Assembly (NCBI GenBank): GCA_030682575.1
Contig: JAUXNX010000026.1
Coordinates: forward strand, 186,001 to 250,000
Length of the DNA stretch: 64,000 nt
Direction of reading: 5' to 3'
Source of the DNA: Gammaproteobacteria bacterium
GTDB lineage: Bacteria > Pseudomonadota > Gammaproteobacteria > Pseudomonadales > Pseudohongiellaceae
Shown: piece after piece, positions 14,967-25,512 of the stretch
Layout: each line of letters starts with the position of its first letter
How positions within the stretch are numbered: position 1 is the stretch's first letter
Position numbers and translations under genes: made by a program
Notes under the pieces: generated by a model
What the model was told of the DNA's origin: nothing
The model's input: only the letters and a program-made list of their open reading frames with translations
Database searches by the model: none

Positions 14967-16673
14967 ATGAAGTCTCCGATCACCACCGACGACCATTTCA
15001 CACGCTCTGCCGGACGGGAGTTGGCGCGCTATGCGTTGATCGCCGTGACAGTGCTGGTGATGCTGATGTATTTCCTCAACTTTGTTGCGGGCCTGACCAG
15101 CAGTGGAGCAGGGGGCGTTGCCGGGGCGGTGGATGTTGAGAACAACGAGATCAGTATCTATCTGCGCGAAGAGCCACCACAGATGAACAGTATGCTGTCC
15201 AGTGATGTGATCAGCGGGACAGTGCTGGGGCATGTCATGGAAGGTCTGCTGCGTTATGACGACAACAGTCAAATCGTTGCCGGTCTTGCCGAACGCTGGG
15301 AGATCCAAGGCACCCGCGCTACCTTCTGGATACGCGAGAATGCCCGCTGGAGCAATGGTGATCCCGTCACCGCCCATGATTTCGAGTTCGCCTGGAAGAC
15401 CGCGCTCGCTCCCATCACTGCCTCTCAGTACGCCTTCATCTTCTATCCAATCAAGAATGCCGAGGCGGCCAATACCGGCCAGATGCCGTTGGAGTCTGTT
15501 GGCGTTCGCGCCCTGAACGATCGGACACTGGAGGTGGAGCTTGAGCAGCCGGTTGCCTATTTCGACAAGTTGGTGGCTTTTCCTACTTATCTCCCTGTGC
15601 AGGAAGCCTTCTTCAATGCCACCAATGGCCGCTATGGTGCAGATGCAGATGAGATGCTGTATACCGGCCCGTTCTACATTTCCAGCTGGGTGCATGGCGC
15701 CAGCATGCGCATGGAGAAGAATCCTTACTACTGGGATGCCAACCGCATCCGCATCGATGCTCTCAACGTTGCCTACATCACCTCCGACTCGAATACTCTG
15801 CTCAATCTCTTCAAGGATGGCCGCATTGCTCAGGTGGATCTCACGGCCGAGATGCTGGAGGGGGCCATGCAGCAGAAGTGGCACCTGGATCGCTTCATGG
15901 ATGGCAGTGTATTTTTCATGGACTTCAACCATCGGGATAATCGACTGACCCGTAATCTGAATCTGCGCAAAGCCATGTTCCTCGCGCAAGACGGCAATGA
16001 GTTGGTGAACAGCGTTATCAAATTGCCTGGGTATTTGCCTGCCAAGAGTCTGTTTCCCGTTTGGTTGCAGGGAATGGAGAAAACCTTCAGGGAGGAGTAT
16101 CCAGCGCCTGAATCTCCTTACAATGTCGCTCTGGCCAAGGAGTATCTGGAGCAGGCGAAACGGGAGCTGGGGCTGAGTGAGATTCCACCTCTTGTCCTGC
16201 TTGCCGACACGTCCCCAGTGGCAACGATTTCAAGCCAGTACTATCAGGCAGTGTTCAGAAAGAATCTGGGGCTCAACATCATCATAGATGCGCAGACATT
16301 CCAACAACGCATTGCCAAAATGAATGCGGGGGACTTCGATATCGTGCTGGCAGGTTGGGGGCCGGACTATAACGATCCGCTGACCTTCGCTGATCTCTAC
16401 GCATCCTGGAATCTCAACAATCGTGGCAACTACAGGAGCACAGTATTGGACGAGCAGGTTCGCATCGCCCAGACATCCACCGACACGAAGACCCGCATGG
16501 ACGCCTTCGGTGAAATACAGCGTATCCTCCACGAGGACGTAGTCTACATAGGCAACTACGAGCGTGGCCGCGTCTACGCCACGCATCCGCAGGTCAAGGG
16601 TGTATTGCGTCGCGTGATTGGCGCGGAGTTTGATTACACCGGCGCGTATATCGACAACACGGGAACTCCATAA
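14967..16673 (+). CDS. Peptide ABC transporter substrate-binding protein, membrane anchored (operon 1)
   Basis: A 568-residue family 5 solute-binding protein (OppA/DppA type). Residues 22-42 form an uncleaved-looking membrane anchor (ALIAVTVLVMLMYFLNFVAGL) instead of a lipoprotein signal. Family features are ISIYLREEPPQMNSMLSSDVISG near the mature start, GLAERWEIQGTRATFWIRENARWSNGDPVTAHDFEFAWK (about 97-140) and FDIVLAGWGPDYNDPLTFADLY (about 455-476), which lines the peptide site. The ATG at 14967 was chosen because upstream frame sequence overlaps the mscS start region. It is the first gene of a five-gene operon (SBP, two permeases, two ATPases), with a 5-base gap to the next gene. The ligand is probably an oligopeptide; exact specificity is unknown. 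Confidence 0.9.
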   Translation: MKSPITTDDHFTRSAGRELARYALIAVTVLVMLMYFLNFVAGLTSSGAGGVAGAVDVENNEISIYLREEPPQMNSMLSSDVISGTVLGHVMEGLLRYDDNSQIVAGLAERWEIQGTRATFWIRENARWSNGDPVTAHDFEFAWKTALAPITASQYAFIFYPIKNAEAANTGQMPLESVGVRALNDRTLEVELEQPVAYFDKLVAFPTYLPVQEAFFNATNGRYGADADEMLYTGPFYISSWVHGASMRMEKNPYYWDANRIRIDALNVAYITSDSNTLLNLFKDGRIAQVDLTAEMLEGAMQQKWHLDRFMDGSVFFMDFNHRDNRLTRNLNLRKAMFLAQDGNELVNSVIKLPGYLPAKSLFPVWLQGMEKTFREEYPAPESPYNVALAKEYLEQAKRELGLSEIPPLVLLADTSPVATISSQYYQAVFRKNLGLNIIIDAQTFQQRIAKMNAGDFDIVLAGWGPDYNDPLTFADLYASWNLNNRGNYRSTVLDEQVRIAQTSTDTKTRMDAFGEIQRILHEDVVYIGNYERGRVYATHPQVKGVLRRVIGAEFDYTGAYIDNTGTP

Positions 16674-16678
16674 CTCCA

Positions 16679-17611
16679 ATGTGGCAGTACACACTCAAAC
16701 GTCTCTTGCAGGGAGTTATCACGGTCTGGTTCATCGCCACTGCGACCTTCCTGGCCATGCATAACGTGCCCGGTGATCCTCTTTCCGGGGAGCGTGCCAT
16801 GAGCGCGTCCATTCGCGCCAATCTGGAAGCGCGCTACGGTCTCGACAAATCGCTCACCCAGCAGTATTTCATTTATATCGGTAATTTCCTCAAGGGTGAC
16901 TTTGGCGTGTCATTCGCGCAGGAAAATCGCCAGGTCAATGACATCATTCGCGAACATTTTCCTGTCTCCGCAACGCTCGGTATCCTCGCGGTGATCTTCG
17001 CTGCCCTCGGTGGCGTGTTGTGGGGAGCGCTCACTGCGCTGTATCGCAATCGGCTGCCCGACACCATCATCATGTTCCTGGTCATTCTTGGTATATCTGT
17101 TCCGAGTTTTGTATTCGCTGCATTGGGGCAACTGACACTGGTGAATCTGAACGCGTTTTTCGGTGTCTCGTTTCTGCCTGTGGCGGGCTGGGGTACCGTG
17201 AGTCACATGTTATTGCCCGCACTGGTCCTGGGCATGGGGACGATGGCTTATCTCACCCGACTCATGCGTTCGTCGATGCTCGAGATCATTCACTCCGACT
17301 ACGTTCGTACCGCCAAGGCCAAGGGTCTGCCTCCGGCCAGAATCTTCACCCGCCACCAATTGCGCAACGCTATCCTCCCTGTCATTACCGTACTTGGCCC
17401 TGCGATAGCTGCGATTACCACGGGCGGTTTCGTGGTGGAGCTGGTGTTCGCGATCCCCGGACTGGGCCGCTACTTTGTGCAGGCGGTACAGCAGCTTGAC
17501 TACACCGTGATAATGGGCACGACGGTTTTCTATGGTGCATTTCTCGTGTTCATGGTGATCGTGGTGGATCTGCTGTACGGCTGGATTGATCCGAGGGTGC
17601 GGCTGCAATGA
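16679..17611 (+). CDS. Peptide ABC transporter permease, DppB/OppB type (operon 1)
   Basis: A 310-residue integral membrane permease with about six spans. It begins MWQYTLKRLLQGVITVWFIATATFLAMHNVPGDP, the typical OppB/DppB start. The EAA loop that docks the ATPase reads DYVRTAKAKGLPPARIFTRHQLRNAILPVIT (about residues 203-234). It ends in DLLYGWIDPRVRLQ, also standard. The stop overlaps the start of the next permease by four bases (ATGA), so the two are translationally coupled. It forms the pore with the DppC-type partner at 17608. Confidence 0.94.
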   Translation: MWQYTLKRLLQGVITVWFIATATFLAMHNVPGDPLSGERAMSASIRANLEARYGLDKSLTQQYFIYIGNFLKGDFGVSFAQENRQVNDIIREHFPVSATLGILAVIFAALGGVLWGALTALYRNRLPDTIIMFLVILGISVPSFVFAALGQLTLVNLNAFFGVSFLPVAGWGTVSHMLLPALVLGMGTMAYLTRLMRSSMLEIIHSDYVRTAKAKGLPPARIFTRHQLRNAILPVITVLGPAIAAITTGGFVVELVFAIPGLGRYFVQAVQQLDYTVIMGTTVFYGAFLVFMVIVVDLLYGWIDPRVRLQ

Positions 17612-19017
17612 CGAACCCTGTCCTGATTAGTTCCGGAGCGAATTCGGAAGCACTTGCAGTTGCGGACTTCGCGCCCATCGCACATCGTCCGGATATTCAC
17701 GGCATCAGTCGCCCTTCGCGCTCTTACTGGCAGGATGCGTGGATTCGGCTGAAGAAGAATCGACGGGCAATGGTGTCTCTGTGGCTTATCGTTGGACTGC
17801 TCGCCTTCGCGGTGATCGGGCCCTTGCTTTGGCAGGTTGACCCAGCTCGACAGGACATCGATCAGATCAGTCAGGCGCCTGGTGCAGATCGCAGTGCCAG
17901 AATTGTCGCGCCATATGAATTCTGGGGTGGTCAGGCGTTCTCGGGTTTTGGTGAGGGCAGTGGTCTGCGTACCGGGGCAGAGGCCAACTCCCAGGCGGTG
18001 CGCCTGATCTGGGATGCTGTTCCGGGAGCTGGTGGTTACCGCCTCTATCGCAACATCTTTCCGATTGATGACGAGATGGCATTCGGTCTGCCAATCGCCG
18101 AGTTTCCGAATGCCTCGGCGGGTTTCTACGAAGACCGGTTGAATCTGCGACCCGATACCTATTACTACTCTCTGGTGGTGCTTGATGCCAATGGCGGTTT
18201 GACCAGCGACTATCAGGTGCTGGAAGTGCCGGTGCATCGTGTGATTACCGTGGATGAGGTGCGTGAACGCAGTCTGGTGCCTGCTACTGTCGCGCTTGCC
18301 ACTGGCGATGAGGTATTCCTCGCCCTGCATCCATTGGGGACAGATTACCTCGGTCGCGACATGCTGGCGCGCCTTATGTCTGGTGCTCGAGTGTCCCTCT
18401 TCATAGGCATCGTGGCGCCGTTCCTGTACGTGTTGCTGGGAGTTGCCTACGGCGCAACTGCAGGATTTCTCGGCGGCAAGGTGGATCAGGTGATGATGCG
18501 CTTTGCCGACTTCGTTGTGGCATTGCCCTTCCTGCTGTTCATGATTCTGTTTCAGGTGGTGTTCGGCATCGGGCCTGGGGAGAGTGGCATCCTGCCCATG
18601 CTTGTCGCTCTCGTAGTGCTCGCATGGCCGGCGACAGCGCGTCTGGTACGGGGGCAGATACTGCAGATCCGTCAGGAAGCCTATGTCAGCGCTTCAAGAT
18701 TACTCGGAGCAAAGAGTGGCTATCTCGTGTGGCGCCACATGATCCCCAACACCATGGGCGTGATTCTGGTGACGCTGACTTTCGCGGTGCCAAGTGCCAT
18801 CTTTACCGAAGCGTTTCTCTCCTTCATTGGCATGGGTGTGGCGCCGCCCACTGCATCGTGGGGCAGCATGAGCAACGAAGGTCTCGCCACGATGCTGACG
18901 CATCCTCATGAGCTGATTTTTCCCTCGCTGTTCATCAGCATCACTGTGCTTGCCTTCAACCTGCTGGGTGATGGTTTGCGTGACGCGCTCGATGCCCGCA
19001 TGAGGAGTTTCGAATGA
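17608..19017 (+). CDS. Peptide ABC transporter permease, DppC type, with inserted fibronectin-III-like domain (operon 1)
   Basis: A 469-residue permease, about 170 residues longer than ordinary DppC/OppC. The N-terminal cytoplasmic part and TM1 (about residues 55-75, VSLWLIVGLLAFAVIGPLLW) are normal. The expected HPLGTDYLGRD motif comes only at 241-251. Between them lies an extra periplasmic region, and residues about 125-208 look like a fibronectin type III domain: VRLIWDAVPGAGGYRLYRN, then YEDRLNLRPDTYYYSLVVLDANG. The rest is standard, with five further spans and the EAA loop AYVSASRLLGAKSGYLVWRHMIPNT. The frame is continuous, so this is a real insertion and not an assembly join within the gene. 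It probably contacts the anchored binding protein or a substrate outside the membrane. Confidence 0.92.
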   Translation: MTNPVLISSGANSEALAVADFAPIAHRPDIHGISRPSRSYWQDAWIRLKKNRRAMVSLWLIVGLLAFAVIGPLLWQVDPARQDIDQISQAPGADRSARIVAPYEFWGGQAFSGFGEGSGLRTGAEANSQAVRLIWDAVPGAGGYRLYRNIFPIDDEMAFGLPIAEFPNASAGFYEDRLNLRPDTYYYSLVVLDANGGLTSDYQVLEVPVHRVITVDEVRERSLVPATVALATGDEVFLALHPLGTDYLGRDMLARLMSGARVSLFIGIVAPFLYVLLGVAYGATAGFLGGKVDQVMMRFADFVVALPFLLFMILFQVVFGIGPGESGILPMLVALVVLAWPATARLVRGQILQIRQEAYVSASRLLGAKSGYLVWRHMIPNTMGVILVTLTFAVPSAIFTEAFLSFIGMGVAPPTASWGSMSNEGLATMLTHPHELIFPSLFISITVLAFNLLGDGLRDALDARMRSFE

Positions 19018-19027
19018 GGGCAGGGGA

Positions 19028-20050
19028 ATGACGACGAAATTGCTGGAAGTGAAAGATCTGCAGGTCGAGTTTGATACTTATGGGGGCATCGTCAAGGCTG
19101 TGCGTGGCGTCGATTTCGCTGTGCAGGCAGGCAAGACGCTGGCAATTGTAGGGGAGTCCGGCTGCGGCAAGTCGGTAACCGTGCAGGCGATGATGGGACT
19201 GATCCCGATGCCGCCCGGTCGCATCATGGGCGGTTCTGCAAGACTGCGCGGCACCGACATTCTCGGCCGCAAGATGATTGAAGGCAGGGAGGTGCGAGGT
19301 GCCGAGATTGGCATGATCTTTCAGGACCCGATGTCGTCACTCAATCCCACCATGACCATTGGCGATCAGATTGCTGAACCGCTGCAGGTGCATCGTGGCT
19401 ATGGCCAGAAAAAAGCTTACGCCCGCGCCATTGAGTTGCTCGGACTGGTGCGCATTCCCGAGGCTGCGCGCCGTGCGACACAGTATCCCTTCGAGTTCTC
19501 CGGTGGCATGCTGCAGCGCGCGATGATTGCCATGGCGATTTCCTGTAACCCTACCATTCTCATTGCCGACGAACCCACCACAGCCTTGGACGTGACGATA
19601 CAGGCGCAGATTCTCGACTTGCTCAAGAGCCTGCAGGCTGAAACCGGCATGGCCATCATCCTGATCACCCATGATCTGGGCGTCGTGGCACGCATGGCGG
19701 ATGAAGTAGCTGTGATGTACGCAGGCAAGATCGTGGAGTTCGGAACGACGGACGATGTGTTCTACCGCCCCTCGCATCCGTACACGCTGGGATTGAAGCA
19801 GGCCATGCCGACCAATCATCGGGATGCGGTGCAGAAACTCATGCCCATCGAGGGTAGTCCTCCGGATATGTTTTCACCTCCCGTTGGTTGTGCCTATGCG
19901 GCGCGCTGCCCGCACGCGATGACGGTCTGTGAGGCTCGCCAGCCTCCCGCATTCGCTGTGACGGTGCAGCATTACTCCTGTTGCTGGCTGCAGCATTCCC
20001 AGGTGCCACACAAAGCCGCCGGAATTTTCTACGGAGGCGGACATGACTGA
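19028..20050 (+). CDS. Peptide ABC transporter ATP-binding protein, DppD type (operon 1)
   Basis: A 340-residue ATPase. Walker A GESGCGKS spans residues 42-49, Q-loop IFQDPMSSLNP follows, the signature is FSGGMLQRAMIA, Walker B is ILIADEPTTALD and the switch His is in LITHDLGVV. The C-terminal oligopeptide-transporter extension has the four-cysteine motif CAYAARCPHAMTVC plus a later SCCW. It pairs with the DppF-type ATPase encoded next, whose start overlaps the end of this gene by 8 bases. Together they power import of peptides by operon 1. Confidence 0.94.
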   Translation: MTTKLLEVKDLQVEFDTYGGIVKAVRGVDFAVQAGKTLAIVGESGCGKSVTVQAMMGLIPMPPGRIMGGSARLRGTDILGRKMIEGREVRGAEIGMIFQDPMSSLNPTMTIGDQIAEPLQVHRGYGQKKAYARAIELLGLVRIPEAARRATQYPFEFSGGMLQRAMIAMAISCNPTILIADEPTTALDVTIQAQILDLLKSLQAETGMAIILITHDLGVVARMADEVAVMYAGKIVEFGTTDDVFYRPSHPYTLGLKQAMPTNHRDAVQKLMPIEGSPPDMFSPPVGCAYAARCPHAMTVCEARQPPAFAVTVQHYSCCWLQHSQVPHKAAGIFYGGGHD

Positions 20051-21002
20051 TCTGGTTCGCATCAACGAACTGACCCGTTATTTCGAGATGGGTAAAGGAA
20101 AACGCGTCCATGCCGTGGACAAGGTGAGCTTCGCGATTGGCGAGCGCGAAATTGTCGGGCTGGTAGGTGAGAGCGGCTCCGGCAAGTCCACGCTGGGAAA
20201 GACCATGCTTGGATTGCATGACAAGACATCGGGAACTGTAAGCTATCGTGGCGAGACCTTGCCGGCTCATTACTCATCAAGAGACTTCCAGCGCTTCTCC
20301 CGAAAGATGCAGATGATCTTCCAGGACCCGTATTCCTCATTGAATCCGCGCATGACGGTAGGTGAAATCATCGCCGAGGGTCTGTTGCTGCATGGTCTGG
20401 CGACTCAGAGCGCGGCGCGCGACAAGGCTGCACACTGGCTGGAGCGCGTCGGGCTGAATGCGGACCACATGTCCCGTTATCCCCACGAATTTTCCGGTGG
20501 GCAGCGCCAGCGCATCGGCATTGCGCGCGCCCTGATTCTCGATCCTGAGTTTGTGGTCTGCGACGAACCCATCTCGGCGTTGGATGTTTCAGTACAGGCG
20601 CAGGTAGTGAACCTGCTCAACGAGTTGAAGCAGTCACTCGGTTTGACCATGCTCTTCATCGCCCACGACTTGTCGATGGTGCGTTATGTGAGCGATCGCA
20701 TGGCGGTGATGTATCTGGGTTCTCTGGTCGAGATCGGCCCGGTTAACGATGTTTATTTCAACCCGTTGCATCCCTACACGCAGATTCTCATTGCATCCAA
20801 TCCCGAGCCTGATCCGGATACCGAGCGCGCAAGACTGTCCACACCCATCACGGGCGAGATACCGTCGCCGGTGAACGTGCCGGAAGGCTGTCGTTTCGCC
20901 AGCCGCTGTCCGAAGGTGATGGATGTGTGCAGGCAGAAGACGCCGTTGCTGCTGCAGCCAGTGCAGTCCGAGGGGCGTCTGGTCGCCTGTCATCTATACT
21001 GA
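20043..21002 (+). CDS. Peptide ABC transporter ATP-binding protein, DppF type (operon 1)
   Basis: A 319-residue ATPase with Walker A GESGSGKST (about residues 40-48), Q-loop IFQDPYSSLNP, signature FSGGQRQRIGIAR, Walker B FVVCDEPISALD and switch His in FIAHDLSMV. The C-terminus has the oligopeptide cysteine motif CRFASRCPKVMDVC. It starts inside the end of the DppD gene and is the last gene of operon 1. A hairpin begins 12 bases past its stop. Confidence 0.94.
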   Translation: MTDLVRINELTRYFEMGKGKRVHAVDKVSFAIGEREIVGLVGESGSGKSTLGKTMLGLHDKTSGTVSYRGETLPAHYSSRDFQRFSRKMQMIFQDPYSSLNPRMTVGEIIAEGLLLHGLATQSAARDKAAHWLERVGLNADHMSRYPHEFSGGQRQRIGIARALILDPEFVVCDEPISALDVSVQAQVVNLLNELKQSLGLTMLFIAHDLSMVRYVSDRMAVMYLGSLVEIGPVNDVYFNPLHPYTQILIASNPEPDPDTERARLSTPITGEIPSPVNVPEGCRFASRCPKVMDVCRQKTPLLLQPVQSEGRLVACHLY

Positions 21003-21430: not shown

Positions 21431-22447
21431 ATGCGTGATTATTTTCTCCGCCGTCTGCTGCTGATTCCGCCAACGCTGATTGGTATCACGATAATTGTTT
21501 TCATCATTACCCGGTTGGTTCCGGGTGGTCCTATCGAGCGCGCCATCATGGAAGCGCAGCTCGGCGCGGGCAATACACGCGGCGCGGTGGCTGGACAGAA
21601 CATGGCACTTTCCGAGGCACAGTTGCAGCGTCTTCGTGAGTACTACGGTTTCGACAAGCCGGTTTTGCAAAGTTATGTCGAGTGGGTGGGAAAAGTAGCC
21701 ACCGGCGATCTGGGCACCTCCTACCGCTACAACATGCCCGTGTGGGACGTAATGGCAAGCCGGTTCCCGGTCTCACTCTATTACGGATTGGTGACACTCA
21801 TACTCACCTACATGATCTGTATCCCCTTGGGCATTCTCAAGGCAATCAAGCATCGGACCGCCGTCGATAACGTCAGCTCAATTCTCATCTTCATTGGTTA
21901 TGCCGTGCCGGGTTATGCGCTCGGCTCGCTCCTGCTATTGTATTTTTCCGTGCGTCTGGAATGGTTTCCGATGGGAGGCTTCACAAGTCTGCAATTCAAC
22001 GACTTGAGCATGTGGGGCAAGTTCAAGGACCTGGTGTCCCATTCAGTGTTGCCATTAATCTGTTATCTGATGGGCAGCTTCGCGCTTGTCACTCTGCTGC
22101 TCAAGAACCATCTGATGGACAATCTTGCATCTGACTACATTCGTACTGCGATTGCGAAGGGCGTTTCGTTCCGCAAGGCGGTGACCAACCATGCGCTGCG
22201 CAACTCGATGATCCCTATTGCTACCACCTTTGGTCAAAACATCACGCTGCTGGTATCAGGCTCCTTCCTGATTGAAACCATTTTCGACATCAACGGGTTT
22301 GGTCTGCTCGGGCTGACTTCGATCGTGGATCGTGACTACCCGGTAGTGATGGGGGTGGTGTTCCTGGCCAGTGTGCTGCTGCTGATCGGCAACATACTCT
22401 CCGACATTCTGGTTGCGCTGGTTGATCCGCGCATACGATTCAACTAG
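21431..22447 (+). CDS. ABC transporter permease, YejB/DppB type (operon 2)
   Basis: A 338-residue permease starting MRDYFLRRLLLIPPTLIGITIIVFIITRLVPGGPIERA; the PGGP motif and length are closer to YejB (microcin C/peptide importer) than to DppB. The EAA loop reads DYIRTAIAKGVSFRKAVTNHALRNSMIPIATTFG (about residues 235-268). It ends DILVALVDPRIRFN. It is the first gene of a six-gene operon whose order is B, C, two binding proteins, then two ATPases. In E. coli the Yej ATPase is one fused protein; here it is two separate genes. Confidence 0.93.
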   Translation: MRDYFLRRLLLIPPTLIGITIIVFIITRLVPGGPIERAIMEAQLGAGNTRGAVAGQNMALSEAQLQRLREYYGFDKPVLQSYVEWVGKVATGDLGTSYRYNMPVWDVMASRFPVSLYYGLVTLILTYMICIPLGILKAIKHRTAVDNVSSILIFIGYAVPGYALGSLLLLYFSVRLEWFPMGGFTSLQFNDLSMWGKFKDLVSHSVLPLICYLMGSFALVTLLLKNHLMDNLASDYIRTAIAKGVSFRKAVTNHALRNSMIPIATTFGQNITLLVSGSFLIETIFDINGFGLLGLTSIVDRDYPVVMGVVFLASVLLLIGNILSDILVALVDPRIRFN

Positions 22448-22453
22448 GGCAGA

Positions 22454-23527
22454 ATGATGGGCATCAAATTCAATCCACAGACCATCAAGAAACTGCGCCG
22501 CTTCCGCGAGATCAAGCGTGGTTATTACAGCTTCATCATTCTTGCCACCTTCCTCTTGCTGAGTCTGTTTGGTGAATTGCTCATCAATAATCGCGCGTTG
22601 ATCGTCAGTTATGAAGGCAGCCTGTATTTCCCGACGTATTCCGCATTTCATCCTGGCACGGATTTCGGACTCGACTATCCATATGAGACGAACTATCGAC
22701 AGTTGCAACAGCTCTGGCGCGACACCGGGTCGCAAAACTGGGTGCTGATGCCAATCATCCCCTATAGCGCATTCGAGAACGATGCCTCCAGCGGAATCTT
22801 CCGGCCTGAGGCGCCGAACCTGGAGAAAGAACACTATCTCGGTACCGATACCACAAGCAGGGACATTCTGGCGCGTCTATTCTACGGCACGCGCATTGCG
22901 TTGGTATTTGCCATCGGTTTCATGCTGGCGGTTTACCTGATTGGCGTTGCAGTAGGATGTGCCATGGGCTATATCGGTGGCACATTCGATATTCTCAGTC
23001 AGCGCGTGATCGAGATATGGAGCAACATTCCTTTTCTATACATGGTCATCATCGTGTTCTCGGTGATACCGGACGCCTTCACCATCTTCACAAGAATACT
23101 CATCCTGCTCTCGGTGATGGTGCTGTTCTCGTGGACATCGATGACGTACTACATGCGGACGGAAACCTATAAAGAAAAATCGCGGGACTACGTGTCCGCA
23201 GCACGCGTGCTGGGTGCGTCCAATACCCGCATCGTGTTCCGGCATATTCTGCCAAATGTACTGTCCACGCTTGTGACCTTCATGCCCTTCACTATAGTCG
23301 CCGCCATCTCCGCCATTACTGCACTCGATTTTCTGGGCTTTGGTTTGCCACCTCCCACGCCGAGTCTTGGCGAACTTCTCAAACAGGGCACCAGCACGTT
23401 GCGGACTGCGCCTTGGATCGTGATGTCTGCATTTGGTACGCTCGTGATTCTGCTGACGCTGGTGACATTCGTGGGTGAGGCCATTCGCGAATCGTTTGAT
23501 CCGAAAAAATTTACTGTTTACAAATAA
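22454..23527 (+). CDS. ABC transporter permease, YejE/DppC type (operon 2)
   Basis: A 357-residue permease starting 6 bases after the previous stop. The start ...TIKKLRRFREIKRGYYSFIILATFLLLSLFGELLINNRALIVSYEG and the long first periplasmic loop (about residues 55-130, with NWVLMPIIPYSAFENDASSG) are typical of YejE. HYLGTDTTSRDILARLFYGTRI follows. The EAA loop is DYVSAARVLGASNTRIVFRHILPN. Unlike the C permease of operon 1, it has no fibronectin-like insertion. It forms the pore with the protein encoded at 21431. Confidence 0.93.
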   Translation: MMGIKFNPQTIKKLRRFREIKRGYYSFIILATFLLLSLFGELLINNRALIVSYEGSLYFPTYSAFHPGTDFGLDYPYETNYRQLQQLWRDTGSQNWVLMPIIPYSAFENDASSGIFRPEAPNLEKEHYLGTDTTSRDILARLFYGTRIALVFAIGFMLAVYLIGVAVGCAMGYIGGTFDILSQRVIEIWSNIPFLYMVIIVFSVIPDAFTIFTRILILLSVMVLFSWTSMTYYMRTETYKEKSRDYVSAARVLGASNTRIVFRHILPNVLSTLVTFMPFTIVAAISAITALDFLGFGLPPPTPSLGELLKQGTSTLRTAPWIVMSAFGTLVILLTLVTFVGEAIRESFDPKKFTVYK

Positions 23528-23562
23528 AATTCCTGAACGAGAACTGCCGGGAGATTGCTGTC

Positions 23563-25512
23563 ATGATGAAAATACACGGTTGGAAGTTGTTGCTGTTGGT
23601 GGCAGTGACACTGCTTGTGGCGTGTGGTGGATCTGATCAGGACGATGGGGAAGCACGAGATAACACCCAGGAAGTACTCGACTTTTATGCAGCCAATCCG
23701 GAGCTGTTCACGTTCGCAACTCCCGCGGATATTCCTGCTGATCTGGTGTGGGAAGACGGGATGGATTTGCCTGAGATAGGCTCGCCTGAGGCAAAAAAAG
23801 GAGGGACATTCTTTCAGCCGATCGAAGACTTCCCACCTACGCTGAGATTTGTTGGGCCGGATTCCAACTTCTCCTCCCGCTCATGGATCAGCGGTTTTTA
23901 CAAGATGACCTGGGCGCTGCCGCATCCTGACGGTGGTGGCTATATTCCGGGTATCGCCCAGAGCTGGGCGATATCCCCGGATACGAAAACCGTTTACATC
24001 AAGATCAATCCTAACGCCCGATGGACAGATGACGAGCCGATCACAGCCGATGACCAGATGTTCGCGCTGTTTTTTTATCTTTCCGAATACATTCAAGCTC
24101 CTTTCTACAATAACCACTATGGAAACGAGTACACGAATATCACCAAGTACGACGATCATACTTTCTCCATGACTGTGACGAACGCCAAGCCGGATATGGC
24201 CGAGTTCGTGTTGTTCCTCAATCCGGTACCGCAGCATTTCTACAAGGAGCTCGGAACCGATTTTCCAGAACGCTATCAGTGGCGTTACGAGCCTCATGCG
24301 GGACCATACTTCATCGACGATAGAAACATCGACATGGGTGTGCGGATTGTCCTTGAGCGCAAGCGGGACTGGTGGGCGAAAGACAACAAGTATTGGCGTT
24401 ATCTCTTCAATCCGGATCGCATCAATCTGACAGTCATCAGAGATGCCTCGAATCGATATGAGGCCTTCAGAGCGGGCAATGTCGATATCATGACGATCGC
24501 CACAGCTGAAATGTGGTACGACAACCTGCCGGAAACTGATCGTGATGTGGCCAACGGCTACATTCACAAGACGACATTTTACAACGATGGTCCGCGCAGT
24601 AATTGGGGGCTGTGGATGAACTCTTCGCGCCCACTTCTGGATAATGTGGAGATCAGGCAGGGTATTCAATATGCCGCCAACTGGGATCTCGTTATCAGCA
24701 ATTATTTCCGAGGCGACATGGATCGCTTGAACGGTCAGAATCAGGGGTACCCTGATTTCACTCATCCCACTCTTACGGCCAGACCCTTTGATATTCCAAA
24801 AGCACTGGAGCACTTCGCAAACGCTGGATTTGTGAACAGAGGGCCGGATGGCATTCTTGTCAACGAACAGGGTCAGAGACTCGCGTTCACATTGACCAGC
24901 AACTACGATCGCTTTTCCGATGTGTTTACAATCCTCAAGCAGGAAGCGATCAAGGCCGGTCTGGATCTGCGCATTGAAATACTGGATGGTGCGGCGGGAT
25001 TCCGCAAGCTCCAGGAAAAGCAGCACGATATCTACTTCGTGAGTTTCTCTCCCGTATTGTCCATGTATCCCGATTACTGGCAGTACTTCCACTCTGACAA
25101 TGCCTACGACGATGCCTTTCTGGACGATGGCAGCGTGAATCCCGATCGCAAACTCAAGCCGCAGACCAACAATGTGCAGGTGGTCGCCGATTTCGAACTG
25201 GATCAGTGGATTGAAGAGTACGATCGCTCAGAGGACAAGGAGCGAATGATCGAGCTGTCGCACATGATCCAGCAGCGTCACTATGAATATGCGTCATTCT
25301 CGCCGGGTTTTGTCGAAACCTCTTATCGCACAGCATATTGGCGCTGGGTACGTTGGCCGGAAGGTTTCAACTACCGGTACACAACCTATCCTTATGAACT
25401 CTTTGTGCACTGGATAGATACGGACATGAAGACGGAAACACTGCAAGCACGGGCAGCAGGACGGGCGTTTGAACCGCATATTAAAGTTTACGATCAGTTC
25501 CGTAAGCCGTAA
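23563..25512 (+). CDS. ABC transporter substrate-binding lipoprotein A (operon 2)
   Basis: A 649-residue family 5 solute-binding protein. The lipoprotein signal ends LLVAC with lipidated Cys21. The mature N-terminus has EVLDFYAANPELFTFATPADIPADLVWEDGMDLPEIGSPEAKKGGT, a segment repeated almost word for word in the next gene. Later marks of the family are INPNARWTDDEPITADDQMFALFFY and GPRSNWGLWMNSSRPLLDNVEIRQGIQYAANWDLVI. The length is near that of YejA-type proteins. The two binding proteins of this operon look like products of tandem duplication and may widen the substrate range of one transporter. ATG 23566 is an alternative start. Confidence 0.9.
   Translation: MMKIHGWKLLLLVAVTLLVACGGSDQDDGEARDNTQEVLDFYAANPELFTFATPADIPADLVWEDGMDLPEIGSPEAKKGGTFFQPIEDFPPTLRFVGPDSNFSSRSWISGFYKMTWALPHPDGGGYIPGIAQSWAISPDTKTVYIKINPNARWTDDEPITADDQMFALFFYLSEYIQAPFYNNHYGNEYTNITKYDDHTFSMTVTNAKPDMAEFVLFLNPVPQHFYKELGTDFPERYQWRYEPHAGPYFIDDRNIDMGVRIVLERKRDWWAKDNKYWRYLFNPDRINLTVIRDASNRYEAFRAGNVDIMTIATAEMWYDNLPETDRDVANGYIHKTTFYNDGPRSNWGLWMNSSRPLLDNVEIRQGIQYAANWDLVISNYFRGDMDRLNGQNQGYPDFTHPTLTARPFDIPKALEHFANAGFVNRGPDGILVNEQGQRLAFTLTSNYDRFSDVFTILKQEAIKAGLDLRIEILDGAAGFRKLQEKQHDIYFVSFSPVLSMYPDYWQYFHSDNAYDDAFLDDGSVNPDRKLKPQTNNVQVVADFELDQWIEEYDRSEDKERMIELSHMIQQRHYEYASFSPGFVETSYRTAYWRWVRWPEGFNYRYTTYPYELFVHWIDTDMKTETLQARAAGRAFEPHIKVYDQFRKP

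Follow-up and report, generated by a model that had tools for sequence, protein, structure and literature searches.

The locus analysed here raises the question of why a permease of a bacterial peptide importer carries a folded domain of the fibronectin type III (FN3) class in one of its loops. The window (the whole stretch of DNA that was analysed, 64,000 nucleotides) encodes a permease of 469 residues in which the H of the HPLGTDYLGRD motif stands at residue 241; the open reading frame, the Pfam domains and the position of the motif are in agreement on the length and the displaced motif described in the original prediction. Pfam recognises OppC_N at residues 39-91 (63.7 bits vs. a cut-off of 23.9) and BPD_transp_1 at residues 278-466 (117.3 vs. 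26.4 bits), with nothing between the two. Both domains, together with an operon encoding a family 5 binding protein (SBP_bac_5, hereafter SBP), OppB, OppD and OppF, identify the protein from its sequence as the OppC subunit of a predicted type I ABC oligopeptide importer. The named NCBIfam equivalogs (Opp3C, Opp4C, OppC PRK15406, DppC, GsiD and the like) were also tried for the permease and rejected, the best of them, Opp3C, reaching 306 bits against a cut-off of 450. The ATG of the permease gene and the stop codon of oppB share the four nucleotides ATGA (17608-17611), and the gene order SBP-OppB-OppC(FN3)-OppD-OppF is found both in the window and in the relatives whose neighbours were readable (Table 1). 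Directly downstream of this operon lies a second peptide importer set, which is YejB/YejE/YejA-like (21431-25512), and the tandem of both importers is retained in several relatives (e.g., L053, L056, L058, L062, L072, and L102).

Table 1. Features of the opp-type operon and of the insert-bearing permease (positions in the window)
Feature	Position	Strand	Basis
Family 5 oligopeptide binding protein (OppA-like) with N-terminal hydrophobic segment	14967..16673	+	SBP_bac_5, E 2.7e-66
OppB-type permease; TM1-TM2 scoop-like region with PGDP...ER retained	16679..17611	+	BPD_transp_1, E 3.2e-40
OppC-type permease with predicted FN3 insert, 469 aa	17608..19017	+	OppC_N, E 1.4e-17; BPD_transp_1, E 8.5e-34
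N-terminal linker, TM1 to FN3, residues 78-117, conserved	17839..17958	+	invariant Q5, D6, P14, R18, A20 and W29 (insert-alignment numbering)
Predicted fibronectin type III domain, residues 118-211	17959..18240	+	AlphaFold insert-model residues 41-134 match FN3 domains, Z 9-9.7
C-terminal linker, short helix and strand, residues 212-240, before HPLGTDYLGRD	18241..18327	+	model secondary structure; alignment
OppD-type ATPase	19028..20050	+	NCBIfam OppD subfamily, E 4e-112
OppF-type ATPase	20043..21002	+	NCBIfam OppF, E 1e-106

The extra stretch between the first transmembrane helix (TM1) and HPLGTDYLGRD comprises about 147 residues, about 94 of which make up the FN3 domain and the remainder conserved linkers. 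It is bounded on one side by the post-TM1 loop (DPARQDIDQISQAPG, residues 78-92), whose counterpart in the alignment is the ordinary short loop with PP at its end, and on the other by the motif at residue 241; the whole insert-bearing loop is presumably periplasmic, judging from the known topology of OppC. The original prediction had located an FN3-like domain in this first periplasmic loop, at 17980-18231, which is close to the domain proper as delimited in Table 1. Its sequence pattern includes a W in strand B, Y-x-V-Y-R in strand C and YYY in strand F.

The assignment of the domain to the FN3 class is based on the fold and on intermediate sequences, since the sequence alone gives a weak signal and the Pfam cut-off is not reached. 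Indeed, a Pfam scan of the window insert returned nothing significant, with no match to fn3 (PF00041) above the gathering score, and one orthologue gave an E-value of 0.14. The best sequence-profile match of the insert in the PDB is the 'Fn3-like protein' 3mpc (E 0.033). In addition, the insert profile matches two proteins that are not permeases (L210 and L211, with per-genome E-values of 8.8e-4 and 6.6e-5) at places where Pfam fn3 matches overlap; these E-values are modest, and the link to FN3 drawn through such intermediates is supporting rather than decisive. For the search against FN3 that had been proposed as a check, Pfam fn3 is not matched directly, but the insert profile does match the intermediates and 3mpc. 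The insert alone was modelled by AlphaFold2 from 69 sequences with a pLDDT of 88.5, a pTM of 0.82 and the strand pattern of a beta-sandwich. When the full-length permease was modelled from 58 orthologues, the transmembrane part was poor (mean pLDDT 65.6) and the insert was confident, its ten-residue blocks from 121 to 230 scoring 81-91. With the insert model as a query, the top rows of Foldseek were mostly FN3 domains (fibronectin EDB 5n48, E 1.3e-3; 3mpc, E 3.3e-3), and nearly all of the top 50 rows of VIA-align were FN3 domains or FN3-derived binders, fibronectin module 11 being aligned over 85 residues with Z 9.7 and an rmsd of 2.1. AlphaFold, Foldseek and VIA-align therefore agree with the earlier reading, and residues 118-211 are predicted to form an FN3 domain.

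Such a domain is not an ordinary feature of OppC or DppC proteins. In a survey of OppC-type proteins drawn from the phylum by OppC_N, in which 28 distances were listed (26 other permeases, the window's own row, L162, and one more short value), TM1 and the GTD of the motif are separated by 168 residues in the window permease vs. 21-28 residues in 24 of the 26 others that were measurable. The original prediction, which considered the insertion uncommon, is borne out in this respect. The two exceptions, L177 and L179, have 103 residues between TM1 and GTD, and a second set, picked for long frames, added L201 with 105 residues and L193, L202, and L205 with 90-92. These proteins from other Pseudomonadota represent two further insert types (L177/L179/L201 and L193/L202/L205) at the same TM1-TM2 site. 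Although they lie between the same landmarks as the insert of the window permease, they are shorter and, as far as sequence comparison indicates, apparently unrelated to FN3; the L177 insert, the one that was scanned, has no Pfam match. The survey of homologues thus confirmed that FN3 is exceptional, but it also revealed that some permeases carry other inserts in its place. It follows that the site has accepted inserts repeatedly, FN3 being one of at least three types, which suggests that the TM1-TM2 position generally tolerates insertions.

The FN3-bearing permease is found in every searched genome of the genus (in pieces in G011) and in much of the family. Within the order, the insert profile has matches in 68 of 390 sampled genomes (29 of 143 genera); approximately 63 of these are permeases, and five weak matches (E 1e-5 to 9e-4, E-values being per genome throughout) are other proteins. 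When 398 genomes were drawn across the phylum, the permease turned up, apart from the window itself, in four members of a single family that lies outside the class, and two further weak matches were other proteins. Named carriers are Pseudohongiella, OM182, and Candidatus Azophilus, alongside many Pseudomonadales MAGs. No FN3 insert was detected on plasmids (tblastn) or in viral contigs, and PADLOC reported nothing. Because many independent genomes preserve the insert, at identities of 23-86%, it is neither a chance occurrence nor an assembly error. Two records, titled as a Klebsiella pneumoniae MAG (L055) and a Rhodoferax sp. OV413 MAG (L108), contain an operon highly identical to that of Pseudohongiella-type relatives, and the organism names of these records are probably wrong.

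OppC homologues that lack the insert occur in the same family (L028-L033 and others), and their operons differ, with a long, apparently fused ATPase and an SBP that is mostly a lipoprotein. In a quick tree of the permease core, of which only the branch separating the insertless L028-L040 and YejE was used, every FN3 row falls on one side of that branch (support 100). The tree is compatible with one gain of FN3, and the domain was probably acquired once, in the ancestor of a mainly gammaproteobacterial permease clade. The domain evolves much faster than the transmembrane core; nonetheless, it is under purifying selection, with dN/dS values of 0.03-0.30, well under 1, in closely related pairs. 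At one locus (L027; G028:C12, about 210271-211578), the gene for the FN3-bearing OppC is broken by several stops (approx. a dozen), and the adjoining SBP and OppB frames are open.

The SBP of the same operon had been considered membrane-anchored. Its N-terminus in the window (ATG at 14967; MKSPITTDDHFTRSAGRELARYALIAVTVLVMLMYFLNFVAGLTSS) consists of a hydrophilic, partly acidic start of about 24 residues, followed by a hydrophobic segment and then by a Gly/Ser-rich stretch, and no lipobox is present there; this first segment is probably an uncleaved membrane anchor. Approximately 70 SBPs of the close clade share such an N-terminus, as do L151, L152, L155, and L156. Region 14967-15110 thus represents a Gram-negative family 5 SBP in which a probable uncleaved anchor replaces the signal peptide or lipobox. 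Anchoring is therefore a reasonable reading of the N-terminus, but its co-occurrence with FN3 holds in the nearer clade only. Judged by eye, the SBPs of L022, L023, L025, L137-L140, L144-L146, L148-L150, L153, and L154 have ordinary signal peptides, that of L024 has a lipobox and that of L026 is ambiguous. Since FN3-OppC is accompanied by a secreted or lipoprotein SBP in 16 operons that are more distant, the insertion was not caused by the anchor, and a causal tie between the two is not supported. Moreover, the non-anchored FN3 operons lie outside the anchored clade in the tree, which indicates that FN3 probably predates the anchor. The pairing of FN3 with an anchored SBP is a property of one clade and not the reason for the domain.

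What, then, might the domain do? FN3 domains are typical protein-binding modules, and this one keeps a fixed place within an SBP-OppBCDF operon. The reading that we prefer, with a confidence that stops a little short of an even chance, is that the domain provides an extra docking surface for the SBP, analogous to the P2 region of MalF. FN3 would stand on the periplasmic face beside the substrate entrance and would offer the cognate SBP an additional lateral docking surface, as MalF-P2 does for MalE; this might prolong the residence of the SBP on OppBC or set its orientation. The OppB scoop would still serve the SBP cleft: the scoop-like PGxP..[ED][RK] is present in OppB of 82 of 87 operons, and because it has been kept, FN3 would be an addition. 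In the nearer clade, the SBP anchor, gained later, would further confine the SBP near the permease.

Correlated divergence of FN3 and SBP was analysed in 87 operons, with OppB, the OppC core, OppD, and OppF as controls. The partial r between FN3 and SBP is 0.47 (linear) or 0.32 (cubic), similar in magnitude to the 0.36 for OppB-SBP within the same operons, and it is 0.05-0.15 for the N-terminal linker and SBP. Across these operons, the test favours the pairing of FN3 with the SBP over its other pairings, in line with docking. In a small subset of 15 operons, for which the second transporter served as a control, the FN3-SBP value is 0.07 and the FN3-YejB value is 0.36. Since the correlation vanished in these 15 operons, it may reflect shared fast evolution.

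Other explanations of the domain have to be weighed against docking. It is possible, though unlikely, that FN3 acts as a spacer or assembly module, which stabilises the OppB-OppC pair or contacts some other component of the envelope rather than the SBP; peptidoglycan, an outer-membrane peptide channel or a periplasmic peptidase would be candidates, each within the same low expectation. FN3 domains are general adhesion modules, and invariant residues are as numerous in the linkers as in the domain, as would suit packing against the transmembrane part. However, no additional partner gene recurs beside the operon in the loci read, where neighbours were recognised by their resemblance to the transporter genes of the window.

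The presence of at least two other insert types at the same site could also mean that FN3 is an insertion which a permissive loop tolerates and which contributes little by itself. This sits uneasily with a domain that has been kept across many families with invariant residues and a dN/dS well under 1, and whose decay was seen only in G028, where the whole permease gene is broken; a passive insertion is thus rather improbable. It is far harder to argue that FN3 itself holds or threads the peptide substrate before entry: the SBP already does this, FN3 as a putative holder has no demonstrated pocket or cleft, and the ligands more usually associated with FN3 domains are proteins. The position near the entrance and the C-C' loop (LG[LIVM]P), in which G-x-P is invariant in the insert alignment, would suit such a role, which nonetheless seems very improbable.

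A mechanistic question on which this clade bears is what advantage a type I importer draws from keeping its binding protein close. The clade supplies natural comparisons through which that question could be tested directly, since FN3 occurs with secreted, lipoprotein or anchored SBPs and insertless permeases exist in the same bacterial family. No published description of an FN3 domain in an Opp or Dpp permease was found in the open-access PMC literature searched. A bolder and rather doubtful proposal is that this importer clade built a P2-like dock for its SBP from FN3 independently of MalF, and that, in one branch, a membrane tether for the SBP followed. If so, the clade would document how a binding protein that once diffused came, step by step, to be held permanently.

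Comparison with known systems helps to define the likeness. P2 of MalF lies between TM3 and TM4, a position taken as equivalent to TM1-TM2 of six-helix permeases. Like P2, the insert is predicted to fold as a domain, and it too occupies an extracytoplasmic (periplasmic) loop in the permease of a type I importer. MalF belongs to a different permease family from the window OppC, and no MalF rows matching the FN3 part were seen in the structure and fold searches; the two are likened by position and role rather than by demonstrated homology or structural similarity of P2 and FN3. Among solved structures, the best relatives of the window permease are E. coli OppC and DppC (PDB 8z21, 8z1v-8z1z), which are homologous to it (phmmer E 1.5e-57 and 1.5e-44; structure alignment Z 19-20, 32-39% identity) but have an ordinary short TM1-GTD loop without a folded domain. 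The bacterial FN3 domains 3mpc and 2w1n share the fold and the sequence pattern of the insert, whereas they are modules of other proteins (a glycoside hydrolase in the case of 2w1n) and not a loop of a membrane transporter. The P2 region of MalF contacts MalE in the maltose transporter (PMC3150292). DppB of the E. coli dipeptide importer has, in its TM1-TM2 region, a scoop motif that enters the DppA cleft and seals the cavity (PMC12136057); here too a periplasmic segment between TM1 and TM2 of a peptide permease docks in the binding protein, but it consists of two short helices in the B subunit, whereas the FN3 of the window is a domain in the C subunit. Because FN3 occupies the C-subunit loop that matches the scoop region of DppB, because MalF-P2 contacts MalE, and because OppB has kept its own scoop, the FN3 domain is tentatively read as an additional surface facing the SBP.
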